Of a stretch of DNA of 64,000 nucleotides, positions 16,570 through 61,900 are shown piece by piece. The stretch is from Salinimonas marina (GTDB lineage: Bacteria > Pseudomonadota > Gammaproteobacteria > Enterobacterales > Alteromonadaceae). Made by a program: the position numbers and the translations under genes. The notes beneath the pieces are model-generated. The model saw nothing but the letters and a program-made list of their open reading frames with translations. It was not told the origin of the DNA and made no database searches. The number at the start of each line of letters is the position of its first letter. Position 1 is the first letter of the stretch. The stretch is taken from NCBI RefSeq assembly GCF_015644725.1, contig NZ_CP064795.1:2974501-3038500 (forward strand), given 5' to 3'.

Positions 16570-16653
16570 ATCCGGGACCGCGCAATCGTCACTGGCGTGG
16601 CATTTTCCAATGCCGCGCTATTTCCTTTTTGGCCAACTGTGAACAAGACCCCT

Positions 16654-18723: not shown

Positions 18724-18728
18724 TCCCG

Positions 18729-40746: not shown

Positions 40747-40781
40747 CCTGCAGCCAGTCACCCGGACGTAAGAGATTACTC

Positions 40782-42976: not shown

Positions 42977-43018
42977 TATTACTGTTTAATTGCGGGCTCT
43001 GTTCGGGCCCGCCTATCA

Positions 43019-45146: not shown

Positions 45147-45147
45147 G

Positions 45148-46472
45148 CTAGGGCAGCTTATTTAACACTTCATCCTTATCGTCTTCCAGTAAGGCTAACG
45201 GATCCAGTTTCGATTTCTTGGTATCGGTTTTTATAGGCTGGTTTATACCGAGTTTCAAGCGAAGCTCAGTTATAAATCTGCTTAACACTGTATCTTGTTG
45301 TAAATGTTTTTCGGCATACAATCGCGCCACTTGATTGTGGCCCGTGCGTTCAACGGCCAGTTCCTCGTTGATGGCGGCGGTTAAGGCATGGCTACTTTCC
45401 GGCTCTATCAGGTTATAGATGCCATTAAACTTTTCACACAGCTTACCCAGTTCGGTTTCGGGTTCAGCTGTAATAATCGCATCACCGCCAGCCGCAAGTA
45501 TGTTGGTTAGCTTTGAAGGTAACACCACATCTGCCGCGCCCCTTTTTTGCACCACCAGATGAATATCCGCTGTAGCCAGCATGGCCGGAACATCTTCCCA
45601 CTCCTGAAGCGGCAGAAAAAACACATTGGTCAACTGATACTGTTGGGCCAGTGACTTAAGCGTTTCAACATAGGCTCCGGCGCCGACCATGACAAATTTA
45701 ACATCTGTCTGTTGTGTAAATGTTCTGGCTGACTCCAGAATGATTTCGAGGCCCTGTTTGTGGCCCATATTACCGGCATAGAGAACCAGTTTGTCCTGCT
45801 CAGAAAAACCATGATTTTTACGAAATATCTGGCCCGGGGTGTCTGGGGTAACAAAGTCGGTATTGGTCCAGTTTGGGAAAAATAAAAGCTTTTCCTCACC
45901 CACACCTTTGTGCCGGGCCAGTTCAAGCATGCTATAGGATATACTCGAGACCATATCAAAGCGCTTCAGGTACCAGCGTTCGACTTTTTTCAAAGAGCGG
46001 GTAAAGAAGTTATTGTTAGCCAGGCCTAAGCCTAGCATTGCATCCAGCTCATAATCCTGAATATGCATCACCGCCTTGGTACCGGTCAGCTTGCAAAACA
46101 GCAGAGTTAGCGGCGCGCAAAAAAACGTGGGCTGAACTAAAAAAACCACATCGTATTTTTGTTTACATAAAGAAAACAGCCTGACACCAGAACTGATAGC
46201 AAAAGAAAAAAGGTGTAATAGGCGCTTGGCGGTAGTGACAGTTTTTGGGATGTACAAAGGGCAACGATGTATTGTTGCTCCGTCTATTTGCTCTGTACGA
46301 TACCTGGCACTGGAATACCCTTCACCTGCTTGCCATTCAGGGTAATACGGGGGGCACACAGTACCGATACATCCACACCTTTTTGCACCAGAGTTTGCGC
46401 CATGTCACCATTGTATTTACCAATGCCGGTCCGTTCCGGGTAATGGTTCAGCGAGTACATTAGAATCTTCAT
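45148..46472 (-). CDS. WcaI-like glycosyltransferase, GT4 (one frameshift)
   Basis: A cytoplasmic GT-B transferase for the EPS repeat unit, resembling colanic-acid WcaI (KILMYSLNHYPERTGIGKYNGDMAQ; APPYYPEWQAGEGYSSARYRTEQ). The donor-site part contains VLYAGNMGHKQGLEIILE and FLPLQEWEDVPAMLATADIHLV. The frame breaks in a C6 run on the coding strand (46349-46354); a seventh C restores LCAPPYYPEWQAGEGY and 441 residues. Last gene of the ten-gene EPS operon; its start overlaps the acetyltransferase by about 56 bases. Base composition is like the chromosome, unlike the AT-rich genes upstream of it. Confidence 0.85.
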
Positions 46473-47013
46473 CATCCATCCTTGGCTTTATCGGTTTAGC
46501 TGGATAACCTACACAAATCATATTTGCAGGCATATCTTCAAATACTGAGCTTCGTGCCCCTACTACTGCACCTTCATTTACGACCACTCCTGGAGCAACA
46601 AATACGTCTGTTGCAATCCAGGCTTTGTCTTTCACAACAATTTTTTCTGCATGTATATCAAACGCTTCAGATTTGTAATCATGAGAGCCTGTACATAGAT
46701 ACGACCTTTGAGATACAACCGCGTTAGAGCCTATTTCTATAGGACCTAAATTGTATAAAACAACATCATCACCAACCCAAGAAAAATCACCTATAGTAAG
46801 ATTCCAAGGGTAAGTAATTGTAGCAGAGGGTCGAATAATTACATTTTTCCCTATTTTAGCTCCAAATAGACGAAGCAGGAACCGACGCCAGCTATATGCA
46901 AATTGCGGGGAAGGTCGAAACAGAAAGGTCTGGACAAACCACCATATCTGAACAAACAAAGCTGTTCGACACCTAAATCCTTCTGGTAATTTAAAATTAT
47001 CTAGCCTTTGCAT
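46417..47013 (-). CDS. WcaF-like hexapeptide-repeat acetyltransferase
   Basis: A 198-residue left-handed beta-helix acetyltransferase resembling colanic-acid WcaF. Hexapeptide repeats run through GAKIGKNVIIRPSATITYP and IGSNAVVSQRSYLCTGSHDY, with the likely catalytic histidine in TGSHD, and the domain closes with CVGYPAKPIKPR. It probably adds O-acetyl groups to a repeat-unit sugar. The C-terminal 20 residues overlap the start of the next gene and do not look conserved, so the true stop may differ. It overlaps the preceding glycosyltransferase by 17 bases. Confidence 0.83.
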   Translation of the reverse strand: MQRLDNFKLPEGFRCRTALFVQIWWFVQTFLFRPSPQFAYSWRRFLLRLFGAKIGKNVIIRPSATITYPWNLTIGDFSWVGDDVVLYNLGPIEIGSNAVVSQRSYLCTGSHDYKSEAFDIHAEKIVVKDKAWIATDVFVAPGVVVNEGAVVGARSSVFEDMPANMICVGYPAKPIKPRMDDEDSNVLAEPLPGTDRHW

Positions 47014-48106
47014 TACTCATCTCTATAGATTCAATCAAAATTTGGAACGCATGATCAGCAGCTAATTTTTCAATCGCAAAACGACTTTTAATACGTGCCG
47101 GCCATTGATTTTTTTCGTAAGATGAATAAAAATCTCTATAAGTAATTAAAAATTCATCAAAACATCCATAATTTACGACATAACCTGAAAACCTTTTGAT
47201 TACACTTTGCATAACGCCCTTAGGTGTACCAATTAGTAAGCACCCCTCGCGAGCGGCTTCATAAAGCACTAGTGGCTCAGCTTCGTTTTTATAATTTGAA
47301 GGAAAATAAAAGACATCGATTTTTTCGAAAAACGATATCTTATCTTCGCCATAAATAGCACCTTCATATGAAATCCAATCAATAAGAGATATTGAATCTA
47401 GAGTAGCCTTTTTTGTTACTTCATCTACAAAGCCACCAGCAAGATAAAGCTCGACCTCGTAGCCAAGTTCTCTCAGCCTCTTAACATGATTGACAACTAC
47501 ATCAACTCCTTTTTCGAGACAAAGGTTCGCTAAATGGCCAAACCTTATTGGACCAATTTTTTTTGCCGAACAAGAAAGTTCCAATTTATCAAAAAAGGCT
47601 AAATTGGAAACCACGATAAAATTCTCACTATCAACACCGTACATATCCACGATCTTAGACTTCATCTCATCACCTAGTACGACATGAATTACATCTTCTC
47701 CAGCAACCTTGAGAACTAATCTAAAAATATTGCTTTCTCGGTTTAGATATGCAAATGAATGATGATGAAGGTAAACTTTAAATCTAAAGGCTCTTAAAAA
47801 AAACATAAATAAAATATCATAAAGCTGCCCTATACCACCGTTTAAAGAACGATAGCAAACTTTACTTTGTTCTAGTGAAGATATTGTATAATATAAAAGC
47901 TGTAAAAAAGAGATAATAAAACGAAAAGCTTTGAGGATGGCCCAGAATTTAGAGCCATAAAAACGGGAAAAAAGGGACGGGCTTGTATTAATGCAACGAA
48001 AATTGGAAAATTTCTCACAAAAACGCGCTTGAACCTTTTGATTAATACTAGACATACCGTGTAGTGGTTCAGGTAAATCGCACAATAAAATGACCACTAG
48101 TGACAA
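46997..48106 (-). CDS. Glycosyltransferase, GT4-like
   Basis: A 369-residue GT-B glycosyltransferase. The C-terminal domain has RFGHLANLCLEKGVDVVV (entry to the nucleotide-sugar fold) and the E-x7-E-like stretch NEAEPLVLYEAAREGC. The N-terminus is poorly conserved, as usual for acceptor domains. The gene is AT-rich and overlaps both neighbours (17 and 10 bases) in the EPS operon. Donor sugar cannot be predicted. Confidence 0.8.
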   Translation of the reverse strand: MSLVVILLCDLPEPLHGMSSINQKVQARFCEKFSNFRCINTSPSLFSRFYGSKFWAILKAFRFIISFLQLLYYTISSLEQSKVCYRSLNGGIGQLYDILFMFFLRAFRFKVYLHHHSFAYLNRESNIFRLVLKVAGEDVIHVVLGDEMKSKIVDMYGVDSENFIVVSNLAFFDKLELSCSAKKIGPIRFGHLANLCLEKGVDVVVNHVKRLRELGYEVELYLAGGFVDEVTKKATLDSISLIDWISYEGAIYGEDKISFFEKIDVFYFPSNYKNEAEPLVLYEAAREGCLLIGTPKGVMQSVIKRFSGYVVNYGCFDEFLITYRDFYSSYEKNQWPARIKSRFAIEKLAADHAFQILIESIEMSNAKAR

Positions 48107-49209
48107 TCCTCGTTAATGTTTTTTAATAGTTCTTTTAATTGAATCGCATAGTCAGACCACGTTGGTATATCGTGACAGTCTCGAGAAAATCTACCAGAAA
48201 TAATTTTTTGCAAAGATGTCTCGAAGCCGTTGGAACTAAGAGGATCGTAAACAACTCCACCGCCGTAACGTGAGATAATATCAGAAGCTCCAGCGAATTT
48301 AGAGACTATGACTGGCACTCCCATTTGTATAGATTCCATGGCAACCATACCAAAACCGTCCTCGATAGAAGGTAAAACGGATATATCAGATGACGAAATA
48401 AAATCCAAAACAACGCTATGTGAAAGACTACCATGATAAGTAAAATCGACGCCGATTGATGACAGAACATCCATATACTGCTTATCCGCCAGGCCTATAA
48501 AGTGAAGATCTAAGTCTAAATTTAACGAAAGTTTCTGTATGGACTTTAGTAAATAATAGTGACCTTTACGAGGGAAAACTTGACCCACAACAACTATTTT
48601 AAGCTTACTTCCAGTAGGAATGGCTACTGAACTAGTATTAGAAAAAGATACGCCATAAGGTATTAAAAATATTTTATTTTTATCGAAGCCATGTTTTATA
48701 TAACTCTCTTTTACACACATGGAGGGTGCTAAAATATAGTCAACATTTTGAATTTCTCGTAACTTGTTGCGATAAACTGTTTCGGACCAGAAAAAATCAA
48801 TTCCATGAAAAAGCTTATCTTCATTAAGCAATTTAAGCATTTCAGTAGGATGAATATTTACAGCTTCACCAACAACGTGCCCATGCAGAGCCAGGCGCTT
48901 TATAAGACTATTGGAATTTCCCTGCATCAATACTAAGTTAACTTTGCACGGAGAAATAAACCTAGTCGATAACGACCATAACATATCGAAAAAAAATATT
49001 TTTCTGTAACAATATTTAGCACCGAAGATTTTTATGAAGAATTGAAGAAAGTTTTCTCTCAGAAATAAATTGGTTTCTTTACCAGACCCATCCAAAAAAT
49101 TAGAATTTATTTTATGGGAGTAGATGAACTTTTTTAAATTATCATCTTCCGAAAAATACTCAATATAATACTTATAATGGAAAATGCCAGGAACGATAAT
49201 ATTAAACAT
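48097..49209 (-). CDS. Glycosyltransferase, GT4
   Basis: A 370-residue GT-B glycosyltransferase with the GT4 core VVVGQVFPRKGHYYLLKSIQKL and the donor-binding stretch LPSIEDGFGMVAMESIQMGVPVIVS (E-x7-E motif). AT-rich, overlapping wzy by 8 bases upstream and the next transferase by 10 bases downstream. Acts on the inner face of the membrane during repeat-unit assembly. Sugar and linkage unknown. Confidence 0.86.
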   Translation of the reverse strand: MFNIIVPGIFHYKYYIEYFSEDDNLKKFIYSHKINSNFLDGSGKETNLFLRENFLQFFIKIFGAKYCYRKIFFFDMLWSLSTRFISPCKVNLVLMQGNSNSLIKRLALHGHVVGEAVNIHPTEMLKLLNEDKLFHGIDFFWSETVYRNKLREIQNVDYILAPSMCVKESYIKHGFDKNKIFLIPYGVSFSNTSSVAIPTGSKLKIVVVGQVFPRKGHYYLLKSIQKLSLNLDLDLHFIGLADKQYMDVLSSIGVDFTYHGSLSHSVVLDFISSSDISVLPSIEDGFGMVAMESIQMGVPVIVSKFAGASDIISRYGGGVVYDPLSSNGFETSLQKIISGRFSRDCHDIPTWSDYAIQLKELLKNINEDCH

Positions 49210-50407
49210 CTTTTCTTTTACACCCCAAAACCGTGAGATAAATAAATGGAACTAAAACGAAGATAATACTTTTCATAAATTGGGGTGTATAACCTCTGGA
49301 AATATAATAGTAACCAAATAGCACTGCAACTAAACCAACACCGACATTTCTTATAGCAACATTATCAACACAAGTGAAAAACCTTGTAAAAAAGGAAACT
49401 ATAAACCCTAAAAATATAGTCATAGGAATAGCGAAATAATAACCACCCATCATTAAATACTCACCAAAAAAAGGGTAAGTTGTAGCTGAATTACGTCCTT
49501 GATGACTACGAAGCCCTTCAAGTACTAGATAAATTTGCTTACCAACATCTTTATCGGGATAAATAAATCGCGGAATGAAATCAATAACAACATCAAACAG
49601 AGGCTGCGCATAAACGAAATAGCTATTAGCGACTACAAAAGTATTTATAGATATGATGCCAAAAATAATATTTGAATCTGATAAGAAACCGTAAAGTACA
49701 TCCTCGAAACCGCTGTTACCTAGCTGCGCTATATCTAACCCAGAAAATTTAACCCTTGTTAACGTTATTATTGAAAAGAAGGCAAGTAAGACTGATGAAT
49801 ATAAGCCCAAATAAAAATATCTACCCCCGCCTTTCATAGTGAGGAACTGGTGCACTAATAACGGTAAAAATAGTATTATCAATTTATATCTAAAACCAAC
49901 AAAAGCACAATAAAATACAAATAAAACCAAACTTATTAGGAAAAGCTTTTTATGATCAAGGATAAGCAAATAAAATAAAGCAACAAGTAAAAGGTCAGAC
50001 ACCTGATAGGAAATAAGGAAGAATGAGCTACGCAAATCTTTATTTACATAGACGTAAGCGCAACACAAAACACCCAAAGCATAAAACTTGAAGTTAAGCT
50101 TTTTAACTGGATAAATATTATCGAAACAAACTACATCCTTATGAGACTTAGAGACACAAATTAATACATAACTTGTGTTTAGCAAAGCAATAAAACTAGC
50201 AAAAATTAATGAATTAAAAGGTATTTCACTACTCCAATTAATTCCTGCGAAGTATCCATTGTGGACATTAAGCCAATATAATGGGCCTAATACAGCATAA
50301 TATACCCCACTTAAAGAAGTAATAAAGGGAAAAACTCTATAAATCGGGCTTAACTTTAGAGATAAAAATAAGCTAATTAAGATAATTAACAAACTAGATG
50401 AAATCAT
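49202..50407 (-). CDS. Polysaccharide polymerase, Wzy-like
   Basis: A 401-residue integral membrane protein with ten or more hydrophobic segments and one larger hydrophilic loop (about 260-310, RFIYPDKDVGKQIYLVLEGL), the layout of Wzy polymerases. Sequence identity between Wzy families is always low, so the call rests on topology plus place: between an acetyltransferase and a glycosyltransferase, two genes after the flippase, in a Wzx/Wzy-type operon. It would join repeat units in the periplasm. Confidence 0.75.
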   Translation of the reverse strand: MISSSLLIILISLFLSLKLSPIYRVFPFITSLSGVYYAVLGPLYWLNVHNGYFAGINWSSEIPFNSLIFASFIALLNTSYVLICVSKSHKDVVCFDNIYPVKKLNFKFYALGVLCCAYVYVNKDLRSSFFLISYQVSDLLLVALFYLLILDHKKLFLISLVLFVFYCAFVGFRYKLIILFLPLLVHQFLTMKGGGRYFYLGLYSSVLLAFFSIITLTRVKFSGLDIAQLGNSGFEDVLYGFLSDSNIIFGIISINTFVVANSYFVYAQPLFDVVIDFIPRFIYPDKDVGKQIYLVLEGLRSHQGRNSATTYPFFGEYLMMGGYYFAIPMTIFLGFIVSFFTRFFTCVDNVAIRNVGVGLVAVLFGYYYISRGYTPQFMKSIIFVLVPFIYLTVLGCKRKDV

Positions 50408-50937
50408 TTTTTAAAACAGGCTATATAGCTTACATTTTCAGTAGGATTGTAATTCAATCCCTTAACTCTAGTGCCTATTAATTTAGCAGGGTTAGATGCC
50501 AAAATGCTATAAGGCGGATAGTTTTTAGTGACCACTGATGAAGCTGCAACGACTGTTCCTTCAGATATTTTCACACCGGGAAGAACCAGGCAATTCGTAG
50601 CCAACCACGCATAGTCACAAATTTCAATCTTATCCGATATATTTGGCCAGGCACTGTGGCTAATGTCATGACTTCCTGTAAGTAGATTCACTTTAGAATT
50701 AATGACAACCCTATCACCAATTATCACTTTATTATGAAGGGCAATATTAACTTCTTTGTCTATATAGCAGTAATCTCCTACTACAAGATTTTTAGCCTTA
50801 TTTATAGGCACCTTACAATTAACAATAGAACCGGCACCTATCTTAGCGCCTAGACTACGTAGCCAGAGTACTTTATACTTATAACAAAAGAAATTAGGTA
50901 TATTGAAAAGTATCTTTCCTATATTCTTAATAATCAC
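50404..50937 (-). CDS. Hexapeptide-repeat acyltransferase
   Basis: A 177-residue left-handed beta-helix acyltransferase: LGAKIGAGSIVNCKVPI, LTGSHDISHSAWPNISD with a likely catalytic histidine, ICDYAWLATNCLVLPGVKISEGTVVAASSVVTK and the closing NPAKLIGTR. Probably acetylates a sugar of the repeat unit. It is the second acetyltransferase of this operon. Overlaps wzx (ATGA) and wzy by 4 bases each. Confidence 0.84.
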   Translation of the reverse strand: MIIKNIGKILFNIPNFFCYKYKVLWLRSLGAKIGAGSIVNCKVPINKAKNLVVGDYCYIDKEVNIALHNKVIIGDRVVINSKVNLLTGSHDISHSAWPNISDKIEICDYAWLATNCLVLPGVKISEGTVVAASSVVTKNYPPYSILASNPAKLIGTRVKGLNYNPTENVSYIACFKK

Positions 50938-52193
50938 GTTGGCTCCTTCGAGGAAAATATCTCCAATTTTGTTCCATTTTTAAAAACACATATATAAATA
51001 ATAAAAATTTCAAAAACCGCAACCGAACAAACTGCTTTTTGGAGAGGAAGAGAAATAGATGATAAGTAAAAACCTAGAAGTGACGTAGCGTAAATAAGAA
51101 ATAATTTTATAGCAAAATCGTCGTGTTTATTACTTGCCATTAGTAGCACCCAATCTGTTTGCCATATACCATTTAAAACTGCTATAAACAATAAAGATGT
51201 GAATAGCTCTCTATCAAAGTAAAAATCCCTTCCGAGCCAGAGATAAACTGCTAGCTCTGCAAAAATCAGCAGTACTATAGAGCTTATACACAAAAGTAAA
51301 AAGGAAATGTTACGGCATTCATGAACTTTAATTTTTAGGTTTTTAACATCAGAATTTCCGTATAACACACTAAACCTCGGCCAATACGCCTTATTAATAA
51401 CTGCTAGTAGCTGAGTCATGAATCTAGTTAAAGTTCTGTACGCATTAAACAAAATTAAAAGTGCGTCTGAATATATTACCGACACAACATATGTAATGCC
51501 TTGTACTGATAGAATATTACTCAATGAAAAGGAACTGAAGAGAATAGATTTTCTATAAAACCTTTTAATAAATATAATATCAAAAGAACTTTTCTTGAAA
51601 ATAACTTTTCTATTAAACCTACTAGAATATGCCGCTAGAAATATAGTCAGTGCAAGGCGAGTAATAAAAAGTGAAATTGCCATTGGTAAAATTTCTTGCG
51701 TAAATATTAATAAAAAAACGCTGACCAACCACTCTATAAGTCTTATTGAGTTTATTAAGAAAAGAAATTCGTGGTAAACATCATTTATTTTAAACTTCAA
51801 CTCTATGAATGGATTGTAGAGCGAAATCGCACCCCAACAAATCAACGAAACCATCGCTGAATAATTATTTATTTCGCCCACTAGCAGAGTAACTAGCAAT
51901 AAAGCTGCAGCTATAACTATCAATACAAAACAGGTAAAAAAAATTGCTGTCGTATAAATCGCTCGCTTAACACTTCTTTTATAATTTTTATAATTTATAA
52001 AGATATCATTACACATTACATATGAAAACCCAATATCGCTAGCAGCTATGTATGCCGGAAATAGACTTACAACAATCCAATCAGCATAATCCTTCTCACC
52101 AAGATAGCTTAGGAGTAAAGGTATTGAAACTACAGGTATAATTGAGTTAATAATTTGCGCGTATAAACCAGCAACTATATTTTTCTTGATCAC
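50934..52193 (-). CDS. Polysaccharide flippase, Wzx-like
   Basis: A 419-residue membrane protein with about twelve hydrophobic segments and the MATE/PST-superfamily opening (NSIIPVVSIPLLLSYLGEKDYADWIVVSLFPAYIAASDIGFS). It would turn lipid-linked repeat units across the inner membrane. Very AT-rich. It overlaps the acyltransferase by 4 bases and starts 1 base after the pyruvyl transferase stop. Confidence 0.83.
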   Translation of the reverse strand: MIKKNIVAGLYAQIINSIIPVVSIPLLLSYLGEKDYADWIVVSLFPAYIAASDIGFSYVMCNDIFINYKNYKRSVKRAIYTTAIFFTCFVLIVIAAALLLVTLLVGEINNYSAMVSLICWGAISLYNPFIELKFKINDVYHEFLFLINSIRLIEWLVSVFLLIFTQEILPMAISLFITRLALTIFLAAYSSRFNRKVIFKKSSFDIIFIKRFYRKSILFSSFSLSNILSVQGITYVVSVIYSDALLILFNAYRTLTRFMTQLLAVINKAYWPRFSVLYGNSDVKNLKIKVHECRNISFLLLCISSIVLLIFAELAVYLWLGRDFYFDRELFTSLLFIAVLNGIWQTDWVLLMASNKHDDFAIKLFLIYATSLLGFYLSSISLPLQKAVCSVAVFEIFIIYICVFKNGTKLEIFSSKEPT

Positions 52194-52194
52194 A

Positions 52195-53058
52195 TTAGTA
52201 CCTGGAAAAATATTCTGAAATTGCCGCTTCGAAACGTTCTTTCATAATTTCTAGTTGCCCTTCTTCAACTAATACTAGCTCCTTATCATTGCTGAGTATG
52301 ATAGATTTTATTTTTTTCATATACTCTTCATTGATTGCTACACCTTTCCTTCTCGGCTCCAGAAACTTTTTAAATTTACCCCGCGTAGCTATATATCTTA
52401 AACTCGGCACTGCCGGCTTTTCTAAGTTTATTATGGAACTATTATCTATGTTTAATGAACGATAAAAATCCTGCCATTTCTTCATTTCTAAGTTTACATA
52501 CAAGGATAAAGGTAGAAACGGTTTTCTGTAAGCTGCAGCTACAATTGCACCATGTAAAGATTCTGTTATTACAAACTTTGCAGATTTAATATGAGCTATG
52601 TATGTATAAATATCGCTTGCTGGGTCTAAAAACTTAATATCTTCGTCTTCATAACCCTCGAAATCCCATAATTCACAAGTAGTATGATGTAAGGCAACCA
52701 CTATTTTTTCTTCATTTAGCTCTAATTTATTAAACTTTTCTAAATATGGTAAATAAAGCGCAGGATCGCCTATTACTTTATCCTCAGCTATCTCTAACTT
52801 CTCCGCAGTAAGGGGCCCACGAACCCCTATTATATCTACCGAGCCAACATCGATGTTCAACGCTTCACCATATCCATAACCGGATCCAAAAATAATTGAG
52901 TCGGTGATTTTACCGTGTACATTGTTTAGCAAAGTTCCTATGCCATAAAATTTCTTTCCATTATTTAGATAATGACTTCCTAATACATCTTTAAAGAAAG
53001 GTATATTAAGATCATCACCAAAGTTCCCTCTCCAATCTTTGTGATAAACATGCTTCAT
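52195..53058 (-). CDS. Polysaccharide pyruvyl transferase family protein
   Basis: A 287-residue cytoplasmic protein with the family features: N-terminal NFGDDLNIPFFKDVLG, GVRGPLTAEKL, DPALYLPYL and the C-terminal ESLHGAIVAAAYRKP. Members add a ketal pyruvate to a sugar from phosphoenolpyruvate, giving the polymer negative charge (compare WcaK in colanic acid). Overlaps the upstream glycosyltransferase by 4 bases. Confidence 0.86.
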   Translation of the reverse strand: MKHVYHKDWRGNFGDDLNIPFFKDVLGSHYLNNGKKFYGIGTLLNNVHGKITDSIIFGSGYGYGEALNIDVGSVDIIGVRGPLTAEKLEIAEDKVIGDPALYLPYLEKFNKLELNEEKIVVALHHTTCELWDFEGYEDEDIKFLDPASDIYTYIAHIKSAKFVITESLHGAIVAAAYRKPFLPLSLYVNLEMKKWQDFYRSLNIDNSSIINLEKPAVPSLRYIATRGKFKKFLEPRRKGVAINEEYMKKIKSIILSNDKELVLVEEGQLEIMKERFEAAISEYFSRY

Positions 53059-54185
53059 TCTTCTGATAAAACCCTTGTCAAAATTCTTTCCGCGGCCTTT
53101 CCAGGACTGTAGTATTCAATTTTATTTCGGACTGCTACACATAGTTCTTCATAGTCAACTTTGCTTGCTGTTATTAATTTCAATTTGGTTTCTAATTTTT
53201 CCATATTACAAGGATTTAAGCTTTGTTTTTCTTCTTTTATAACTAAATCTAGGTAGCACCCACAATAGGTGCTTATTATGGCTGGGCAATAGTTGTAATA
53301 AGCTTCATTCACCACTAAACCCCAAGGTTCAGATGTACTTGGTAAAATAAGGATAGTCGCATCGAGTAAGCATTCTGCAATTTCTTTCTGTTTCCTGGCC
53401 CCTTTAAAAACTATATTCTCGGAACTATACTGTTTTTCAAGGCTCGCTCTTTCATCACCTTCACCAACTACAACTAGTCGCCAATTATTTTCAAAGTAGG
53501 TGTTTGTCTTACACCAACTCATAAGACTAGCTAGATTTTTTTCTTTTGAAATCCTGCCTACATAAAGTAAATTTTTCCTATTGTACAATCCTTCTGATTT
53601 TCTTTTGATAACTTCCCTTTTGTCTAGACCAGTATCAAATTCTACAGCCGCGCTAATCGGATAAGTGATCTTATCTTTCGAAATATACTTAGAAATATAT
53701 CGTGCACTAGCCTCTCCATAAGCAAACACCCCATTAACAAATAAAAAAAATATTTTTTTTGCTATTTCTTTTATTAGAACTTCGGGCTTGTCTAACTCAG
53801 TTGAGTCACAGAAAACATAAATAGATTGCCTTTTTACAAAGGCCGCAAATAACATAAACCAATATTCTAACTTATGATATCCAGGCAGTATTACTATATT
53901 CGCATTTGACTTATATATTTTATTTACGAGCTTTATGACCTTTTTTAATTTTGGTACATCTTCGTAATAATCATCAAATAAGAGTTCGTAAGGATAATTT
54001 ATACCCTTAAACGAATCCTGCTCCATGCCTTTTCTAATAATTTCAGAACGCGCGATTTGTATTACAGAGACCTTCACATCAAAATTGGTAGCTTTCTTAA
54101 ATAAGTTTTCGAAAACCTTATTTTTGTACCCTGCCCATAATATATTATGATATACATCTATACGGATAGCTTTACCTTCTTTCAT
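53055..54185 (-). CDS. Glycosyltransferase, GT4
   Basis: A 376-residue GT-B transferase: YVGRISKEKNLASLMSW opens the nucleotide-sugar domain, and ATILILPSTSEPWGLVVNEAYYN contains the E-x7-E donor motif. AT-rich. Its ATG overlaps the stop of the HprK-like gene (ATGA), so the two are translated in a coupled way. Sugar specificity unknown. Confidence 0.86.
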   Translation of the reverse strand: MKEGKAIRIDVYHNILWAGYKNKVFENLFKKATNFDVKVSVIQIARSEIIRKGMEQDSFKGINYPYELLFDDYYEDVPKLKKVIKLVNKIYKSNANIVILPGYHKLEYWFMLFAAFVKRQSIYVFCDSTELDKPEVLIKEIAKKIFFLFVNGVFAYGEASARYISKYISKDKITYPISAAVEFDTGLDKREVIKRKSEGLYNRKNLLYVGRISKEKNLASLMSWCKTNTYFENNWRLVVVGEGDERASLEKQYSSENIVFKGARKQKEIAECLLDATILILPSTSEPWGLVVNEAYYNYCPAIISTYCGCYLDLVIKEEKQSLNPCNMEKLETKLKLITASKVDYEELCVAVRNKIEYYSPGKAAERILTRVLSEE

Positions 54186-55081
54186 TTTAGACTTTCTTCT
54201 ATTAGCGCTGCGCTTGAAGTTTTTTTAGTAAACATTGCTGTTAATATATTAATTATTGCCGTAACTCTTTCTTTTTCAATATTAAAACACTTTGGAATAT
54301 CGCCTATTATCGAATTACCTATCATATTTAGAATAAAATTACCCATGTCATTTGATTTTTCGTAACCTTCTCGCTCCAGAAAAAGTATCTCATGTAAAGG
54401 AGCTTTGTAAGTGTGATTATGAAAATTGTACTCAAGCTTGTTAAAACTATTGTGCACCTTTTTTATTTTTTTAATTTTACATCTTGTAGTTATTAGCTCT
54501 GAACTATCTGGCCACAATCTCAATTTATTCCAGCTTGGATATACAATAGTTTCTTCTAAACTTGAATATATAGCTGTCATATCATCAGTTAATATTTCAC
54601 CACCGATTTTCGCTAACTTGAGACAAGTAGTACTTTTTCCTATACCGCTCGGGCCAACTATCAACAAGGTTTTATTCTTAAGTGTTAAAGCATTCCCATG
54701 AATACAAATCACCCCTTTCATCTCCAGCCAAATAGCGAGGCCGATAGATTGAAAGTAATGATCCGGGCCGGTACCACTGACCCATTCGATATGGATTTCA
54801 TCATCGTAATAGGTAAAGGTGCCTTTGCCCTGGCATTCAACATACAGAGTCCAGTGACCATTGATTTTTTGTAATGCAAAGTGGGTTTTATAGCGCGCGC
54901 CCTGGTCGATAAATTCCCAGGCAGGTGCAATTGGCATCGTAAAGTCAGGGATAGTTTTTACTGACACGCCTAAGGTATAGGGCAGGTCTGTTTCAGGCTT
55001 TGTAGTGCCTATTTTATATGGCTGGACGCCATGCAGAGGGTGTTCGGCTTGCTTGAAGAAGTCCGTTTCAAACTGATCCAT
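54182..55081 (-). CDS. HprK-like P-loop kinase at the head of the EPS operon
   Basis: A 299-residue protein with an N-terminal region lacking a clear motif and an HPr-kinase-like ATPase core: MKGVICIHGNALTLKNKTLL, Walker A GPSGIGKST (143-151) and the acidic GGEILTDDMTA. HprK-like kinases occur in lasso-peptide clusters, where some phosphorylate the precursor, and in PqqD/PEP-CTERM and EPS loci. Here it is coupled to an EPS glycosyltransferase but lies just after the lasso precursor and a terminator, so either role is possible. Base composition changes abruptly near codon 121 (about 54720): host-like before, AT-rich after. This suggests a recombination joint inside the gene. Confidence 0.78.
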   Translation of the reverse strand: MDQFETDFFKQAEHPLHGVQPYKIGTTKPETDLPYTLGVSVKTIPDFTMPIAPAWEFIDQGARYKTHFALQKINGHWTLYVECQGKGTFTYYDDEIHIEWVSGTGPDHYFQSIGLAIWLEMKGVICIHGNALTLKNKTLLIVGPSGIGKSTTCLKLAKIGGEILTDDMTAIYSSLEETIVYPSWNKLRLWPDSSELITTRCKIKKIKKVHNSFNKLEYNFHNHTYKAPLHEILFLEREGYEKSNDMGNFILNMIGNSIIGDIPKCFNIEKERVTAIINILTAMFTKKTSSAALIEESLK

Positions 55082-55243
55082 GTACTTATCCGTGTACCTA
55101 TCCAGGTAATGTCTAGTGTGCTTAAACTGGCTTGCTTAAACTACTGATCCATTTTCTCAGATATTGAGTAGGATTGTAACGTTAATTATGCATCAAATTG
55201 CCACATCTTCAGCATTTTTGCCGAGTGATTTGTCAGCTCGATC

Positions 55244-55272
55244 AAAAAAGCCAGCAGGATGCTGGCTTTTTT
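55244..55272. terminator. Intrinsic terminator after the lasso precursor gene
   Basis: GCCAGC-aggat-GCTGGC with six A's on one side and six T's on the other. On the minus strand it lies 13 bases beyond the lasso precursor stop and separates it from the HprK-like gene. It should give a short, abundant precursor message and limited read-through into the EPS operon. Confidence 0.9.
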
Positions 55273-55285
55273 GGCACCGAAGCGA

Positions 55286-55441
55286 TTAACCCTGAAAAGG
55301 ATTTTGCTTGGTTTGTCCGCCTTGCTCGTCAGGAATGCTACCTGCAAATCCTTCGGTTAGCTCGGCTAATGTACCTACGCGTTCCAGCTGTGGTTTTTCA
55401 TAGCTGCGTTTTTGCTTAGTTACCGTGGTTGAATCGTCCAT
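55286..55441 (-). CDS. Lasso peptide precursor (A), microcin J25-like core
   Basis: A 51-residue ribosomal peptide. The leader (1-30) holds Y14, P17, L19, G23, L28 and T29, i.e. Y-x2-P-x-L-x3-G-x4-L-T. Counted from the cleavage point these are Tyr-17, Pro-14, Leu-12 and Thr-2, the positions known to be read by B1 proteins and the leader protease. The core should begin at Gly31 with GFAGSIPDEQ and end with NPFQG at residue 51. Gly1 can close a ring on Asp8 (or Glu9); Phe19 and Gln20 are possible plug residues. Microcin J25 is also 21 residues, starts G-G-A-G-H-V-P-E with a Gly1-Glu8 ring and ends F-Y-G. AAGGAAGG precedes the ATG and overlaps the stop of the PEP-CTERM gene 10 bases upstream. 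Confidence 0.9.
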   Translation of the reverse strand: MDDSTTVTKQKRSYEKPQLERVGTLAELTEGFAGSIPDEQGGQTKQNPFQG

Positions 55442-55451
55442 TTTTCCTTCC

Positions 55452-56096
55452 TTAAGCATTTTTTTTACGGCCGAAACCGATAAATGCCAATCCTAATGCA
55501 AAGATACTTGCTGTTGCTGGCGCTGAAACCGCAACCATGTCAGTATCGATAAGAAATTCCAGTGTACCAGACTGAGCAAATAACTCATCTGAAATTCCAT
55601 TAATCAGCAAACCACCAAAAAGTTCGTCTTCTACATTGTTGGTATAGCTGGCTACCGCAAAATCTACATCGTCCAGATAGCCTCGTCCCGGGCCAGAACC
55701 GTTGGCACTGGCATCACCCTCGGCAGTATCGAACACGACATTGCCGGCAAACGCGTCGATAAAAATCGACTGTATGCCAACACCCGTAAATTCAAAATCA
55801 AATGTCCACAGACCCAGAGGTAAACTTGCATCGGCGGGGGTTTCAGAGATGGTATTACCCTGCTGTACCAGTGACCAGTCAGAACCAAACACACCACCTA
55901 CAAATCCTTCCTGATAATCCGGGCCAGGATCGGTAGCAAGGGTTTGCCATAGTAGGGTTTCGGTAGAGGCATCACTGTAGGTGACCGTTACCGACATGTC
56001 TGTCATGTCGGCGCCGGTGACGGTTTCGATATAACTTGCTGAGGCTTGGCTGCTTGCCAGAAGTGCAAATGCACCAAAAATTGCAGACTTTTTCAT
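55452..56096 (-). CDS. PEP-CTERM-like exported protein upstream of the lasso precursor
   Basis: A 214-residue secreted protein: signal peptide (MKKSAIFGAFALLASSQASA), a beta-rich acidic body without cysteines, and a C-terminal sorting tail (VSAPATASIFALGLAFIGFGRKKNA). This tail has a proline-containing motif, one hydrophobic helix and a basic end, like PEP-CTERM domains handled by exosortase. No exosortase is in the window. The frame is open 24 codons upstream, but ATG 56096 has AAGGA and starts the signal peptide. The lasso precursor follows after 10 bases, so both are probably on one message. Function unknown. Confidence 0.8.
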   Translation of the reverse strand: MKKSAIFGAFALLASSQASASYIETVTGADMTDMSVTVTYSDASTETLLWQTLATDPGPDYQEGFVGGVFGSDWSLVQQGNTISETPADASLPLGLWTFDFEFTGVGIQSIFIDAFAGNVVFDTAEGDASANGSGPGRGYLDDVDFAVASYTNNVEDELFGGLLINGISDELFAQSGTLEFLIDTDMVAVSAPATASIFALGLAFIGFGRKKNA

Positions 56097-56373
56097 TCCA
56101 TTTTCCTTGTCCAAAGTGCGTGATCCGCGAGCATCTTTTATTTTACTGACTTGGCTTACAAAAATCATGCCTTTATTTTTTTATTATTGTAAATCATATC
56201 TTTAGAATTCTATAAATGAGTATCTAAGGTCATTTGAGCGCCCTCTCAGCATAAAATGTAAAGAAAGCTGACAATAATGGTCAACGCCCTTAGCATTGTG
56301 GTTGAGATGTAGTTCCTTCGTAATTTCAGGTGTAGAATGCTTTTAACTATCAGACTTCGCACGGACGCCAGCT
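56097..56373. promoter_or_regulatory. Divergent promoter region of PEP-CTERM/lasso precursor and lasso cyclase
   Basis: An AT-rich region from which the precursor message (minus) and the cyclase (plus) diverge. For the cyclase, CTGACA (56268-56273) with a 17-base spacer to TAGCAT (56291-56296) is a fair sigma-70 candidate. For the minus strand, TTTACA followed 18 bases later by CATGAT is a weak candidate. No dyad large enough to name an operator was seen. Confidence 0.4.
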
Positions 56374-58047
56374 TTGAGTTCTTTTTTATTTGTTGTAGGC
56401 TCACCTGAATCACGAAACGCTTTGACCCATGATGCTCGGCCATTTTCTTTCGATGCTCATCACATTTACCGGCATCCCGAATTTGAACTTCACCAGACAG
56501 ACACTTCCCCACTTTATCAGTACCAATCAGAGCTACAGCTAAACGATACCCGCCAGCCTGCCTTTTGTTATACCAATCAGTGTCTGTATATCGCCACCGA
56601 TTCTCTGGCATTGCGGCCGCTTTATCATACTGTGTACCAATCGGTATATTTGATTTCTGACTCAGCTCAGTTGCTGCACAATGTCACCGGCAGAACCACC
56701 GAATTTTCCGGCCCGGCATTGGCAGGCTGGTTGAGTGGTCAGCCTATGAATCATCTTTGTGCTCATCAACAAATAGCTGTTTTGGCTGCCGGCCATAGAC
56801 TCGAATTTGCAGACGATACGGTAAAAGTATCAAAGTACTGGGATATCGATCCCAGCTATAAACTCCGTTTTCCCGATGATGATACCTATGCTGCTTATTT
56901 CAAAGATTGCCTGGATACCGTTATTGCAGCCCAGATGGCTACGCACGAGGTTATCGCTACCCAAATGAGCGGTGGTATGGACTCCACCAGCATCACGGCG
57001 CTGGCGTCACTGCAGGCAAAAGCCCAGAATAAAAAATGTATTGCCTTGTCTCACTTTTACCCGGGTGATAGCGCTTCTGATGAAAGCGAGTTGATAAACG
57101 ATATGCGTCATCATCTATCGTTAACTAATGTGCTATCTCAGACCGTAGATACCCAGAATTATCGAGACTTTCTGAGTCTGTATCCTGCGCATTTCGATCA
57201 CCCGGGCATCGTGCTTTCGCCACGGTACAACGACGAACTGGCGATGCTGGCCAAACAAGATGTCACCCTATTGCTTACCGGTAATGGTGGGGATGAAACC
57301 TGCTGGGGGCACGCCAGCGCCTATACCCAAAGATTGCTGAACAAAGATTTTTCGGTCATTCCGGAGGTCTACCAAGCCTGTCGTGTTACTGGCATGCCGT
57401 TTTTAAAAGTGGCTCGCCATCTGTTTGTCCGTCCGATGATCCCTGGCCCGCTTATAACCTTAGCCAAAGCCCTTAAACGAAATAGTAAGCATTCACTACT
57501 GCCGCTATGGCTAACCCCAAAGGCACGTACTATGGCTGAAGAAAGTTTTACTATTAGCAATCCATTTGACGCAAAGCGCGCGCCCATGAACCATGCCCGG
57601 TATTTTGCGATGAAAAACAGTACCACTTTCAACTCGGTACGCTCTTATGATGAGGTATCGAAACAGCATAATATTAAGGTTTGCCACCCCTTCTTCGACC
57701 AAACATTAGTCGAGGCAAGCTTTGCCTTACCGGAAAAGCAGCTTATCAGAGGCGCTTATCCGAAATTCATTTTACGCAATGCGATGAACGGCCTGCTGCC
57801 TGATAGTGTTTGCTGGAAAACAACCAAAACCACCTTTGATATTCATTTTGCGAATTTAGTCAAAGAGAACCGGGATAGTTTACGTCAGTGTATCCAACAC
57901 CCTCTGCTGGCTGATATGGGGCTGCTGGACATTAACCAGGCTCTTCAGGCTTTTGATGATACGTTGAACAACAATAATTCTGGTATAAAGGTCGATTTAT
58001 TATTTTTGATACTTACCCAACGCTGGGTGGCAGAGCTGGTTAATTAG
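56374..58047 (+). CDS. Lasso cyclase (C), asparagine-synthetase-like
   Basis: A 557-residue protein related to AsnB. The N-terminal glutaminase-like half lacks the catalytic Cys2 needed to use glutamine. The C-terminal half has the ATP pyrophosphatase loop SGGMDS (199-204) and GNGGDE (303-308). In lasso systems this enzyme activates the ring Asp/Glu with ATP and joins it to the new N-terminus of the core. It begins with TTG at 56374, with only a weak ribosome site. It is divergent from the precursor and its end overlaps the convergent B2 gene by 8 bases. Free asparagine synthesis is unlikely without Cys2 and with B1, B2 and precursor adjacent. Confidence 0.9.
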   Translation: MSSFLFVVGSPESRNALTHDARPFSFDAHHIYRHPEFELHQTDTSPLYQYQSELQLNDTRQPAFCYTNQCLYIATDSLALRPLYHTVYQSVYLISDSAQLLHNVTGRTTEFSGPALAGWLSGQPMNHLCAHQQIAVLAAGHRLEFADDTVKVSKYWDIDPSYKLRFPDDDTYAAYFKDCLDTVIAAQMATHEVIATQMSGGMDSTSITALASLQAKAQNKKCIALSHFYPGDSASDESELINDMRHHLSLTNVLSQTVDTQNYRDFLSLYPAHFDHPGIVLSPRYNDELAMLAKQDVTLLLTGNGGDETCWGHASAYTQRLLNKDFSVIPEVYQACRVTGMPFLKVARHLFVRPMIPGPLITLAKALKRNSKHSLLPLWLTPKARTMAEESFTISNPFDAKRAPMNHARYFAMKNSTTFNSVRSYDEVSKQHNIKVCHPFFDQTLVEASFALPEKQLIRGAYPKFILRNAMNGLLPDSVCWKTTKTTFDIHFANLVKENRDSLRQCIQHPLLADMGLLDINQALQAFDDTLNNNNSGIKVDLLFLILTQRWVAELVN

Positions 58048-58516
58048 TCAGCCCTTTTGTCACCATATTGGTCAGTAGCGAATTAAATACACTCACGCTT
58101 TGTAGTTCGGCATAGCGGTTTACCACTTCTGCCGAATCATTCACCAGCCGCCCGTTACAGCTTAACCAACAATGCGCTTCTGCTTTACCATTACATACCC
58201 GCATACCAAAGTGCAGCTTGGTCGGGATTGAACGACGATGAAGCATATCGCGCGTCACCAGGCATCGGCGCAGGCAGTTCATCAAAATAACATGATTTCG
58301 GCCTGCCTGTTCGATGGTCGCGGTTAGTTTTGTGGGTAACCCTGCCGGCAATGTATTGGTGGGTTCGATTACATGCTCGGGCTCAATAAAAAGTTTTGCT
58401 TTCCATTGATTGTAGGGCTGTAACTTTATTCTTAAGTGCCATACAAGAAAGCGTATCCAGGCCTCACAAAACCAGGCTTTTTCACGATAATTCAATTTAA
58501 AAAACTGAGTCATCAT
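58040..58516 (-). CDS. Lasso leader peptidase (B2), transglutaminase-like
   Basis: A 158-residue cysteine protease of the transglutaminase-like fold. The catalytic triad is visible as Cys81 (NCLRRCLVTRDML), His115 (AEAHCWL) and Asp127 (RLVNDSAEV). It would cut the leader after residue 30, freeing the glycine amine for ring closure. The start overlaps the stop of the B1 gene (TGATG), so B1 and B2 are coupled. The length matches stand-alone B2 proteins of split B1/B2 systems. Confidence 0.9.
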   Translation of the reverse strand: MMTQFFKLNYREKAWFCEAWIRFLVWHLRIKLQPYNQWKAKLFIEPEHVIEPTNTLPAGLPTKLTATIEQAGRNHVILMNCLRRCLVTRDMLHRRSIPTKLHFGMRVCNGKAEAHCWLSCNGRLVNDSAEVVNRYAELQSVSVFNSLLTNMVTKGLTN

Positions 58517-58779
58517 CAGCAGGCCTCCACTAATCCTTCCGCTTTTAGCTTTTCCAGTAATTCAAGATAGTCTGCTTTTGCGGTTTGTTCTTCTACCTCA
58601 TATTGGTTGGCAATGTTTTGGGTGATTTCGCTGAGGCTTTTTGCTTCGCGCAACATGGCTATCATACTGGCCCCCACCCCATTTACGGTGTAGTAGTTGC
58701 CATGTTCAGGCTCCAGGATCACCATTTCATCGGCCACTTGCTGGGCTAACACATCATCCTTTATTTTATAACTTGTCAT
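58516..58779 (-). CDS. Lasso leader-recognition protein (B1), PqqD-like
   Basis: An 87-residue PqqD-fold RiPP recognition element: [29 protein letters not shown] is the typical beta-strand/helix start, followed by helices to the C-terminus. It should bind the Y-x2-P-x-L leader and hand the precursor to B2. Its ATG overlaps the stop of the exporter gene (ATGA) and its stop overlaps the B2 start. Confidence 0.9.
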
Positions 58780-60454
58780 TGGTCTTCCTTATGCGGCTTT
58801 TTGCAACCTGGCGTTGCGCAAATAATAGGTTTCGGGGCTATGCCAGCTAGTGTCGGATCATGAGAAATCACCATCACTGAGTACTGACGAAATACATCAT
58901 AAAATTCTTGTTTAAACTGTTGGCGGCCGGTCTCATCCAACATTGATGTTGGCTCGTCCAGCAACAGAATATCGGGCTGTTTTAACAAGGCGCGGGCCAG
59001 GGCTATACGTTGGCGTTGCCCCCGGATAAACGAATACCACCTTCACCCACCTGGGTGTTCAGCCCTAAGGGGAGTGAGGCGATAATGGTTGTGAGTCCGG
59101 CTTTGTTGGCAGCATCTATTACCTGAACATCGGTGGCGCCCTCGCACCCTAACGCGATGTTGTTATGCACGGTGCCGCTTTGCAGCACCACATCCTGGGG
59201 TACATAGCCTATGCGCTGGCGTACCTTGTGCACCCCTAACACCCGCGAATCCTGGCCACCAATCATAATCCGACCTTCATCAGGTTGGTAATACTGCAAT
59301 AACAGGTTCAGCATGGTGGATTTGCCCGCGCCGTTGTCCCCCACAATCAGCATCGCCCCGCCTGGCTTCAAGGTGAAATTGACGTTGGTCAGTACCGGGT
59401 GGTCAGGCTGGTACGAAAAACTCACATTTTCAAAACGCACTTCGTTGGTAGGCAAAGATACCGCGGTGTGACCGGGTTGCAGGCTGTGATAGTTTTCCGT
59501 CTCTGCTTCCCAGACCAACGATAGCCGCGAAGCGGCACCGCGCAGATGCTGCGTTTGTCCGTAGAGACCGGCAAAAGCACTGATGGGACGAATAAAAATC
59601 AAACCGTACAATAGCAAGGCCACCATATCGGCCAGCGCCAATGCCTCACTTTCTAGTTTAAAGATTGAAATGCCTAGTATCGCAATCACGGCGATGGCGG
59701 TTAAGGTTTGCACCAGCGGGCTTAACAATGACTGAAAACCAAATTGCCGGATTCGCAACTGCTTCAGGTCTGCCTGGGTTCGGGCATAGCGCTTGCTCTC
59801 CACCTGCTCCCGGGTGAATGATTTTACCAGGCTAATGGTACTGATATTTTCGTTTGCCACTGCCAGCGACTGCGCCTGGGTATTCGCGATAGCGTTTGCT
59901 AACGGGTGAATCTTTCGACCCAGCAATTTGCTGATAACAAATAAAAATGGAATCACACTGACAATAATCAGGCTAATCCACGGTTCGATGGCAAACATCA
60001 GCACTGCACAGCCAACAAAAATGAGCAAATTTGGAATGAGCGTGGTTACTACACTGGTAATGTAAAAACTAACAACCCCCAGGTCGTGAGTCAGCAGCGC
60101 CAGGATGTCGCCTTTATTGGTGTGATGAAAAAAACGCATCGGCAGGCTTTGAATATGCGTATACAGCCGGTTATTTAAATCGGCGGTCAGGGTGGCGCCC
60201 AGCGTATTCAGCTTTACGCCCGACACATAGCGCAGCGTTCCTTGGAACACAATCAGCAGAGCCCACAAACCGACACTGGCCAAACCTAATTGCGTGGTAC
60301 TTGCCAGCGTCTGCATTGCCGCAATATCGCTGGCAATTAATTTGGGCAACACCAGGCTCACGGCGGTTTCGATAATAAGCAGACCCAAAACCAGTAAAAA
60401 ACTGGCTTTGTATTGTCTGAATAACTTTAAACCGTAGCGTAGATTCGTTTTCAT
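58776..60454 (-). CDS. ABC exporter (D), lasso-peptide export/immunity (one frameshift)
   Basis: A half-transporter with six membrane helices (residues 1-310) and a nucleotide-binding domain: Walker [11 protein letters not shown]-loop GYVPQDVVL, signature LSGGQRQR (after repair), Walker B ILLLDEP and switch histidine in VMVISHDP. The frame breaks inside the signature at a G5 run on the coding strand (59019-59023); a sixth G restores [17 protein letters not shown] and gives 559 residues, close to McjD (580). By position it should export the mature peptide and protect the producer. It lies between a priming sugar transferase and B1, so an EPS role cannot be excluded. Confidence 0.87.
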
Positions 60455-60502
60455 GGTGCCCATTAACTGCCTGTTACACGCCCAGGCCTTATCAGCGATG
60501 TG

Positions 60503-61900
60503 TTAATACACATTCTTACCCACAAAGCCTTTGGCAAACGTGAATAACACAATTTTGAAGTCGAACCACAGCGACCAGTTGCGAATGTAATCCAGGTCGT
60601 ATTTAACCCGCATCTGCATTTTTTCGAGGGTGTCGGTTTCGCCCCGCCAGCCATTTACCTGGGCCCAGCCGGTAATTCCTGGCTTTATGCGGTGGCGCAA
60701 CATGTAGTACTTCACGGTTTTGCGATACATCTCGTTGTGGGCAACCGCATGCGGGCGAGGCCCCACCACCGACATTTTTCCCTGTAATACATTAAAAAAC
60801 TGCGGCAGCTCGTCCAATGAGGTTTTACGTATAAACGCCCCTACCTTTGTCACCCGGCTGTCGTTTTGAGTGGCCTGGGTAACCTGGTCACCATTTTCGG
60901 TCACCGTCATTGAGCGAAACTTCCAGACTCTGATTTTTTTGCCATCTACGCCATACCGGTTTTGCTTAAAAATTACCGGGCCTTTGGAGGTCAACTTAAT
61001 GGCAAGCGCGATGATGAGCATGGGCAGCGCAATGACGCTTAATATGGCCAGCGACAAAAAGATATCTTCCAGGCGTTTAACGGCTATGGTGGCGCCACGC
61101 ATGGGGGTGTCAAACACACTGATAGTTTGCATCTGGCCGACATTACAAAGCCGTGAATGCACCAGGTTATAAACAAAGAAATTAGGCACAAAGTGGACTT
61201 CCGCATTAGTATCACCCAATTGATGCAGCACTTGCTCTACGCGTTTATTGGCGGTCATCGGCAAGGTAATAAAAATCTGATCCAGCTTACCTTCATTAAC
61301 CGCTTTTATCGCCTGGTCAATTTTGCCGCCTAACGTCATGCCTGCCGGCACCGGCAGACGGCTTTCATCGCGATCATCATAAATGGCGGCAATCCGAAAA
61401 CCGGTTTCCGGGTTGCGGGCCAGCTCTTTAATCAACTCAAGGGCGGTGTCGTTCATGCCGATGATCCCCACCGAGCGGGTGTTGTAACCGCGGCGACGCA
61501 CATGGAACAAAAAATACCGCATGCCAATACGCCATAAACACAACGCAACAGGGCTTAACAGCATCCAGGTGGTTAAAATGGTACGCGAATAATCCGAAGA
61601 GGTTTTTGTCATAAACAAGAAGCCCAGTACGATAACCGCACTAATGGCCCAGCTAAAGACGGTATAAAACAGGATTTCTTTGGTGGTGCCGGCACGCCAT
61701 GAGCGATAAAGCCAAAACAGCTCGGCACACAGCAGATAGGCCGTACATCCAATCAGGCCAATAAGCTGATAATGCACGGATAAGGCAGTAGGATGTATCG
61801 ATGCGGCAAGCATCAATGACAATTGAATTAATAAAAAGTCTGCCAGTCGATAAACAACCGCAAACTGGTTAATGTTATTTCTAACAAAACCTGAGCTCAT
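60503..61900 (-). CDS. Undecaprenyl-phosphate sugar phosphotransferase, second WcaJ-like copy
   Basis: A 465-residue polyisoprenyl-phosphate hexose-1-phosphate transferase with the same layout as the one at 4705-6162: N-terminal helices, SVGIIGMNDTALELIKEL, and the catalytic FKQNRYGVDGKKIRVWKFRSM, RKTSLDELPQF, GPRPHAVAHNEMYR, WAQVNGWRGET. AAGGACG precedes the ATG. It is the first gene of a unit continuing into the lasso exporter, B1 and B2 (48 bases to the exporter start), an odd combination. It presumably primes one of the two EPS pathways in this window. Confidence 0.92.
   Translation of the reverse strand: MSSGFVRNNINQFAVVYRLADFLLIQLSLMLAASIHPTALSVHYQLIGLIGCTAYLLCAELFWLYRSWRAGTTKEILFYTVFSWAISAVIVLGFLFMTKTSSDYSRTILTTWMLLSPVALCLWRIGMRYFLFHVRRRGYNTRSVGIIGMNDTALELIKELARNPETGFRIAAIYDDRDESRLPVPAGMTLGGKIDQAIKAVNEGKLDQIFITLPMTANKRVEQVLHQLGDTNAEVHFVPNFFVYNLVHSRLCNVGQMQTISVFDTPMRGATIAVKRLEDIFLSLAILSVIALPMLIIALAIKLTSKGPVIFKQNRYGVDGKKIRVWKFRSMTVTENGDQVTQATQNDSRVTKVGAFIRKTSLDELPQFFNVLQGKMSVVGPRPHAVAHNEMYRKTVKYYMLRHRIKPGITGWAQVNGWRGETDTLEKMQMRVKYDLDYIRNWSLWFDFKIVLFTFAKGFVGKNVY

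Follow-up and report, generated by a model that had tools for sequence, protein, structure and literature searches.

A predicted lasso peptide with a nearly invariant core, encoded beside a PEP-CTERM-type protein gene in an exopolysaccharide locus of Salinimonas marina

A 51-aa precursor (A) encoded on the minus strand at 55286-55441 (156 nt) of a 64,000-nt stretch of Salinimonas marina DNA (contig NZ_CP064795.1, positions 2,974,501 to 3,038,500; hereafter the window, whose numbering is used throughout) very probably belongs to the lasso peptide class, and we consider, at a probability of roughly 0.55, that its product is a working part of the exosortase/PEP-CTERM/exopolysaccharide (EPS) cell-surface matrix, made together with PEPc, the secreted surface protein encoded next to it. 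The precursor and its enzyme genes, a core that is almost frozen within the family, the gene order, the promoter motifs and the location among EPS genes are all read directly from the sequence. Lasso peptides are usually regarded as fast-diverging antibiotics and, to our knowledge, the benefit that most of them bring to their producer is not known. If our reading is true, this frozen-core family, which gene order, promoter motif and locus connect to exosortase, PEP-CTERM and EPS, would have a testable function within its own producers, and work on exosortases would gain a peptide partner. The PEP-CTERM/exosortase system is also reportedly tied, in the title of a published paper, to N-acyl amino acid synthases.

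The precursor, its enzymes and its core

Precursor A starts with an ATG at 55441, preceded by the bases AAGGAAGG, and consists of the leader MDDSTTVTKQKRSYEKPQLERVGTLAELTE (55352-55441), the 21-residue core GFAGSIPDEQGGQTKQNPFQG (55289-55351) and a stop codon (55286-55288). A preliminary description of the window, made from the letters alone, had given this frame as a lasso precursor and left out its strand; the frame is real, lies on the minus strand, and carries all six residues of the leader signature then listed (Tyr-17, Pro-14, Leu-12, Gly-8, Leu-3, Thr-2). The lasso precursor itself was thus rightly recognized, while PEPc, the promoter motifs of PEPc and the broken frame of the exporter were missed. 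The NCBIfam model NF033521 (lasso_leader_L3) scores 28.2 bits on A with a cut-off of 19, and a family profile of 19 rows weakly matched lasso chains in the PDB, i.e., the leaders of TfuA (E 0.037) and TbiA (E 0.54 and 0.76) and MS-271 (E 0.39), the other two of its six matches being unrelated proteins, one ribosomal (E 0.28) and the other, the best-scoring of all six, a plant LRR (leucine-rich repeat) kinase (E 0.016). The homologues found by the precursor search (18 besides A itself, E down to 1.5e-16) and by a family-profile search (409 proteins at E <= 10) indicate that the frame is not a product of chance.

All cores among the best 120 of these 409 proteins have 21 residues and fit GF[AS]GS[IVL]PDE[QN]GG[QHNMK]TK[RQES]NP[FY][QSLAT]G, each having Gly1 and, within positions 7-9, both Asp8 and Glu9. 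The ring could close at Asp8 or at Glu9, both invariant in the listed family, and the Gly1-Asp8 ring proposed in the preliminary description therefore survives as one option, not as the unique one. For the window core less one water, the calculated [M+H]+ is 2144.9995 and [M+2H]2+ is 1073.0034, and a phosphate would add 79.966. This list is biased, as candidates had to share words with the query, and we rest the conservation claim instead on loci reached via the enzymes. B2 occurs in 11 of 146 relatives, and three Colwellia loci were added via the cyclase; four loci (L042, L046, L047, L048) were reached by the precursor profile and the remaining ones by B2 or the cyclase. In the resulting 15 loci with 19 precursors (several genomes contribute more than one), the mean identity is 0.91 for the core (minimum 0.81) and 0.64 for the leader, next to 0.38 for PEPc, 0.34 for B2 (a set that includes two orphan B2), 0.42 for the cyclase, 0.44 for B1, 0.43 for the HPr-kinase-like protein (HprK), 0.45 for the exporter (a set that may hold one weak paralogue, from L044) and 0.56 for WcaJ. 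Out of 3591 core codon comparisons, 1500 were equal, 1782 differed synonymously and 309 changed the residue; as synonymous differences far outnumber non-synonymous ones, it is the residues that are conserved, not the DNA. Three genomes (G002, G044, G055) carry three precursor copies each, with identical cores. The reverse pattern is seen in a probable other lasso pair (L050, a single example), where the leaders are identical at 34/37 positions and the cores differ.

Precursor profile matches occur in nine of the 146 relatives (own genome counted), and every one of the nine also holds B2, cyclase, B1 and exporter genes, the exporter frame being broken in S. marina. Loss of the frame from relatives that keep B1, B2 and the cyclase had been named in the preliminary description as a point that would speak against a precursor; across the 146 relatives, the precursor accompanies the complete set in 9/9 cases, and the three Colwellia loci found via the cyclase carry it too. 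Two genomes (G003, G006) have B2 and lack the precursor, with no B1, cyclase or exporter gene near B2 in 19.5 kb, and the B2 of G006, which has NSLRRC where others have NCLRRC, looks decayed. Precursor matches were few in an order-wide sample (2/394) and a class-wide one (4/369, two of them with the full core), so that the breadth of the family over distant gammaproteobacteria rests on the source names in the best-120 list, among them Alteromonas, Aestuariibacter, Ningiella, Glaciecola, Pseudocolwellia and Catenovulum, as well as Congregibacter (Cellvibrionales) and Candidatus Thiodiazotropha (Chromatiales). The precursor found no match in the plasmid collection.

The B1, B2 and C genes mentioned in the preliminary description are present at 56374-58779. 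The putative lasso cyclase (C) is of the asparagine-synthetase type (56374-58047, plus strand, TTG start); it scores 126 on PF00733 (cut-off 21), its top NCBIfam match is the lasso cyclase model NF033535 (153 bits, under the cut-off of 525), and its SGGMDSTS motif is kept in all 12 cyclases. The leader peptidase B2 (58040-58516, minus strand) has NCLRRC and AHCW stretches and passes both NF033537 (51.1 vs 33) and PF13471 (56.1 vs 26). The PqqD-type leader-binding protein B1 (58516-58779, minus strand) is recognized as an RRE-type protein by PF05402 (63.5 vs 23.4) and falls below the cut-offs of the lasso-specific models NF033530 (54.3 vs 70) and NF033536. The last gene of the set codes for an ABC exporter (D; 58776-60463, minus strand), the frame of which is broken between 58988 and ca. 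59020, at a run of five G in the signature motif, leaving pieces of 486 aa (59003-60463) and 70 aa (58776-58988).

The PEP-CTERM partner gene and its promoter

Directly upstream of A lies PEPc (55452-56096, minus strand), which codes for a PEP-CTERM-type secreted surface protein of 214 aa. Its stop codon lies 10 nt ahead of the start of A, and downstream of A comes a strong hairpin, whence the pair looks like, and likely is, one operon. The hairpin is terminator-like (55243-55273, minus strand; 14-bp stem, loop of 3) and, by its folding energy, likely ends the PEPc-A unit: a 61-nt stretch 3' of A folds at -27.8 kcal/mol (z -5.3), and none of 200 shuffles was equally stable. It was not reported by the terminator consensus scan, which ran at chance level (8 vs 8.5), as did the sigma-70 scan (14 vs 13.8).

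PEPc is the gene immediately before A for 16 of the 19 precursors. Its family carries a signal peptide and a PEP-CTERM signal (VPEPST in the Colwellia copies); PF07589 is found in 36 of the 76 PEPc relatives listed, four of which are named PEP-CTERM protein by their source, and the window copy scores 13.6, under the cut-off of 20.7. We rejected the idea that PEPc is an obligate partner of A, since three relatives have an orphan PEPc and G002 has an extra copy. In these three relatives the orphan adjoins WcaJ, the fetched stretches contain no lasso gene and the genomes contain neither precursor nor B2, which speaks for PEPc as a gene of the EPS side and for the lasso genes as an add-on. A tblastn search with 12 of 42 family rows for a degenerate precursor near orphan PEPc genes (L072-L075, L040, L043) gave nothing convincing among the matches listed. 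A conserved 140-aa protein lies between the orphan PEPc and WcaJ in L072, L073 and L074, an arrangement that resembles a natural cassette-free locus. Elsewhere in G002 a PEPc-A pair stands alone (L047), alongside an S9-type peptidase (L047:10551-12536) that matches the lasso isopeptidase model weakly (48.3 bits, cut-off 400).

Upstream of PEPc we found a sigma-54-like -24/-12 element, AGGCATGATTTTTGTA (56157-56172, minus strand), 60 nt before the PEPc start and with GT, not GC, at -12, and, 84 nt upstream of it, motif 1 of the PEP-CTERM regulon, GTCAGCTTTCTTTACA (56257-56272, minus strand), likely a PrsR-type activator site. Haft 2006 (PMC1569441) describes the proteobacterial PEP-CTERM promoter as a 17-nt motif ending in TTTACA, a spacer of ca. 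63 nt (32-92) and a sigma-54 -24/-12 site. Motif 1 precedes a -24/-12-like site within this published range in 16/16 A-linked PEPc genes, at spacers of 73 or 83-87 nt, two classes that differ by about one helical turn; strict GG-N10-GC is present in 14 of the 16, and GT in the window and in one copy of L039. The promoter table also holds two PEPc genes without A, one with motif 1 (L075) and one without (L072). A scan of 1.08 Mb on both strands for the motif pair, with a pattern devised after the sites had been seen, returned 25 sites, where 20 Markov controls gave 0.6 on average (range 0-2). Of the 25, 16 belong to A-linked PEPc genes, three lie upstream of other PEP-CTERM-type genes and six elsewhere, three of these within a single gene that three related strains share. 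The window holds exactly one such pair (56157-56272). One of the three other-gene sites heads an array of nine tandem genes in the S. marina genome itself (L080, G000:C1:1018000-1032000), whose products have PEP-CTERM-like tails scoring 15-25 bits against the PEPc profile.

Exosortase is present in 99 of the 146 relatives and PrsR scores over its cut-off in 102, with all nine precursor genomes in both sets; the own genome has an exosortase unlinked to the cassette (G000:C1:976725) and a PrsR over the cut-off. We consider PEPc-A a highly probable member of the PrsR/sigma-54 regulon.

A matrix role and its rivals

In the mechanism we propose, the leader would be bound by B1 and cut off after Glu-1 by B2, the cyclase would join Gly1 to Asp8 or Glu9 and D would export the lasso product, while PrsR and sigma-54 would switch on PEPc and A along with the other PEP-CTERM genes and the unlinked exosortase would sort PEPc to the surface. 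There the binding partner of the peptide would be PEPc, polysaccharide or some further conserved component of the matrix, which could explain why the core hardly changes, and HprK, perhaps with an NTP_transf_5 protein, may modify the peptide or a glycan. A bolder version, in which a structural, species-independent matrix lasso is phosphorylated by HprK, linked by the NTP_transf protein to the EPS that the locus makes and co-expressed with PEPc, pinning glycan to surface protein, strikes us as unlikely.

The described PEP-CTERM/exosortase system with PrsK, PrsR and sigma-54 resembles the present one in that PEPc has both a signal peptide and a sorting signal at its C-terminus, as well as in the promoter layout, the exosortase and PrsR, but more than 65% of PEP-CTERM genes were described as single-gene operons (PMC1569441), whereas here a lasso precursor follows. 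Elsewhere, a PEP-CTERM gene takes part in floc formation and its overexpression moves EPS from the soluble to the bound fraction (PMC9850573). In the two papers of the library searched that mention lasso peptides together with PEP-CTERM or exosortase, PEP-CTERM appears in a cited title only, and no link is drawn between the two. Four core strings were unmatched in this library, which lacks most subscription journals and bioRxiv proper preprints, and passages of PMC11006600 and PMC13352647 hold nothing on the A family; in NCBI, individual members already bear the generic name of lasso leader protein.

Several observations weigh against a matrix role. Exosortase and PrsR are so widespread in the 146 relatives that their co-occurrence with the precursor is a matter of consistency and not proof, the cassette is rare (9/146) and its exporter frame is broken in this strain, and a frozen core would also be expected of a shared signal or of an antibiotic whose target tolerates no change.

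One rival, which we hold to be less probable than not, is that the cassette is decaying in S. marina, the exporter being a pseudogene and the peptide not exported. In 11 other loci D is unbroken, at 550-574 aa, HprK is shorter and divergent in the window, the -12 position reads GT and the PEPc sorting signal is under the Pfam cut-off. However, none of the frames of A, B1, B2 and C is broken, and both promoter motifs are recognizable. One-base homopolymer slips are a common sequencing error, and the break at the G run may be such a slip or real decay.

A secreted inter-species signal, i.e., a public pheromone announcing growth on surfaces and switched on with the PEP-CTERM regulon, would also account for a core that is frozen while the leader varies more freely, as expected of a shared ligand, and for the triple copies with identical cores; moreover, an orthologous hybrid histidine kinase flanks 4/15 loci (L035, L036, L037 and the window). 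Yet this kinase did not turn up in the remaining fetched stretches, apart from a weaker relative in L045, and may be a mere chromosomal landmark, and no other receptor gene is conserved alongside the cassette, which leaves us doubtful of a signaling role.

The preliminary description had likened the core to microcin J25 (MccJ25), and the likeness stands at 7/21 ungapped identities, a value reached by 0.2% of 20,000 core shuffles (Gly1 fixed) in a comparison chosen after the fact; the core matched no PDB chain, and the two cores need not share an ancestor. Both have 21 residues, Gly1, an acidic residue 8 after Pro7, an aromatic residue 19, Gly21, a leader with Thr-2 and an ABC exporter, but B is fused in MccJ25 and split into B1 and B2 here, where the loop EQGGQTKxNP, the frozen core, HprK, the PEP-CTERM neighbor, the EPS locus and the sigma-54-type promoter are further differences. 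An MccJ25-like antibacterial acting on a conserved target, its core frozen because changes lose the target, the EPS site merely convenient and PEPc either uninvolved or an immunity factor, draws on this resemblance, the dedicated exporter and the patchy distribution, but appears improbable given the mid-core mismatch to MccJ25, the opposite pattern of the L050 pair, and a PEP-CTERM neighbor and sigma-54-type motif that it leaves unexplained. The peptide may still have antibacterial activity, but the frozen core, the PEP-CTERM neighbor and the sigma-54-type promoter point elsewhere.

Tailoring genes and the EPS locus

On the other side of A lies HprK (54182-55081, minus strand), with the P-loop GPSGIGKST and a TDDM stretch. 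It is an HPr-kinase homologue by TIGR00679 (E 5e-7) and PF07475 (29.6), both under their cut-offs (240 and 33.3). HprK was found in 11 of the 15 precursor loci, and not in L042, L044, L045 and L047; the S, G, K and T of the P-loop and DDM are invariant in 11/11, and the window protein has 27-36% identity to the others. A nucleotidyltransferase of the NTP_transf_5 family (44073-45146, plus strand; PF14907 101.5 vs 31.2) is a possible tailoring partner, and homologues occur in 6/15 loci (the window and five of the other 14). Genes of this type near the cassette form two subfamilies (L045:4215-5333, L044:1679-2821, L002/L003/L004 and window 44073-45146).

Paeninodin and pseudomycoidin clusters likewise have an HPr-kinase homologue next to A and a split B1/B2, and the pseudomycoidin-type nucleotidyltransferase has its counterpart in NTP_transf_5. 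Known lasso HPr kinases, including the paeninodin type, phosphorylate a C-terminal Ser, and the pseudomycoidin nucleotidyltransferase adds hexoses to the phosphate (PMC8498205). In contrast, the last residue here is Gly21 in 120/120 cores (best 120 of 409), so the target of HprK must be another residue or another molecule; the same cores keep Ser5 and Thr14 without exception. The HPr-rel-A systems (TIGR04352/TIGR04353) also combine an HprK-like kinase with a PqqD-like protein, but the window proteins are under the curated cut-offs (25.7 vs 200 and 21.1 vs 35).

The cassette is flanked by glycosyltransferase genes on one side and, on the other, by WcaJ, a WcaJ-type undecaprenyl-phosphate glucose phosphotransferase (60503-61900, minus strand; TIGR03023 549 vs 411). 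EPS genes span 40216-54185 and code for an export protein (40216), Wzz (40782), an AAA_31 ATPase (42161), VanZ (43019), glycosyltransferases, and hexapeptide and pyruvyl transferases. This gene set and WcaJ bear out the EPS context given in the preliminary description. WcaJ lies within the same fetched stretch in 10/15 precursor loci (not in L039, L042, L044, L045 or L047). Three close relatives (L035-L037) have the order WcaJ-D-B1-B2-C-PEPc-A-HprK, followed within a few kb by the hybrid histidine kinase (in L035 by Pfam), whereas the window orthologue (31870-34722; orthologues 961-1043 bits) lies beyond the EPS genes, at a distance of ca. 19.5 kb; thus, the cassette and the kinase may have been parted in the window by later addition of the EPS genes. 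In the distant family of G273, verified EPS genes are bracketed by PEPc-A-HprK-WcaJ on one side and by D-B1-B2 and C on the opposite side.

In Colwellia maritima (L004), WcaJ is split over three frames (4118-5520) and B2 lies ca. 9.5 kb past the end of the cyclase gene (11515-21014). Two minus-strand frames of the window (35484-36047 and 34730-35236) resemble, by eye, two pieces of one alkaline-phosphatase-type protein, possibly a second broken frame in the assembly.
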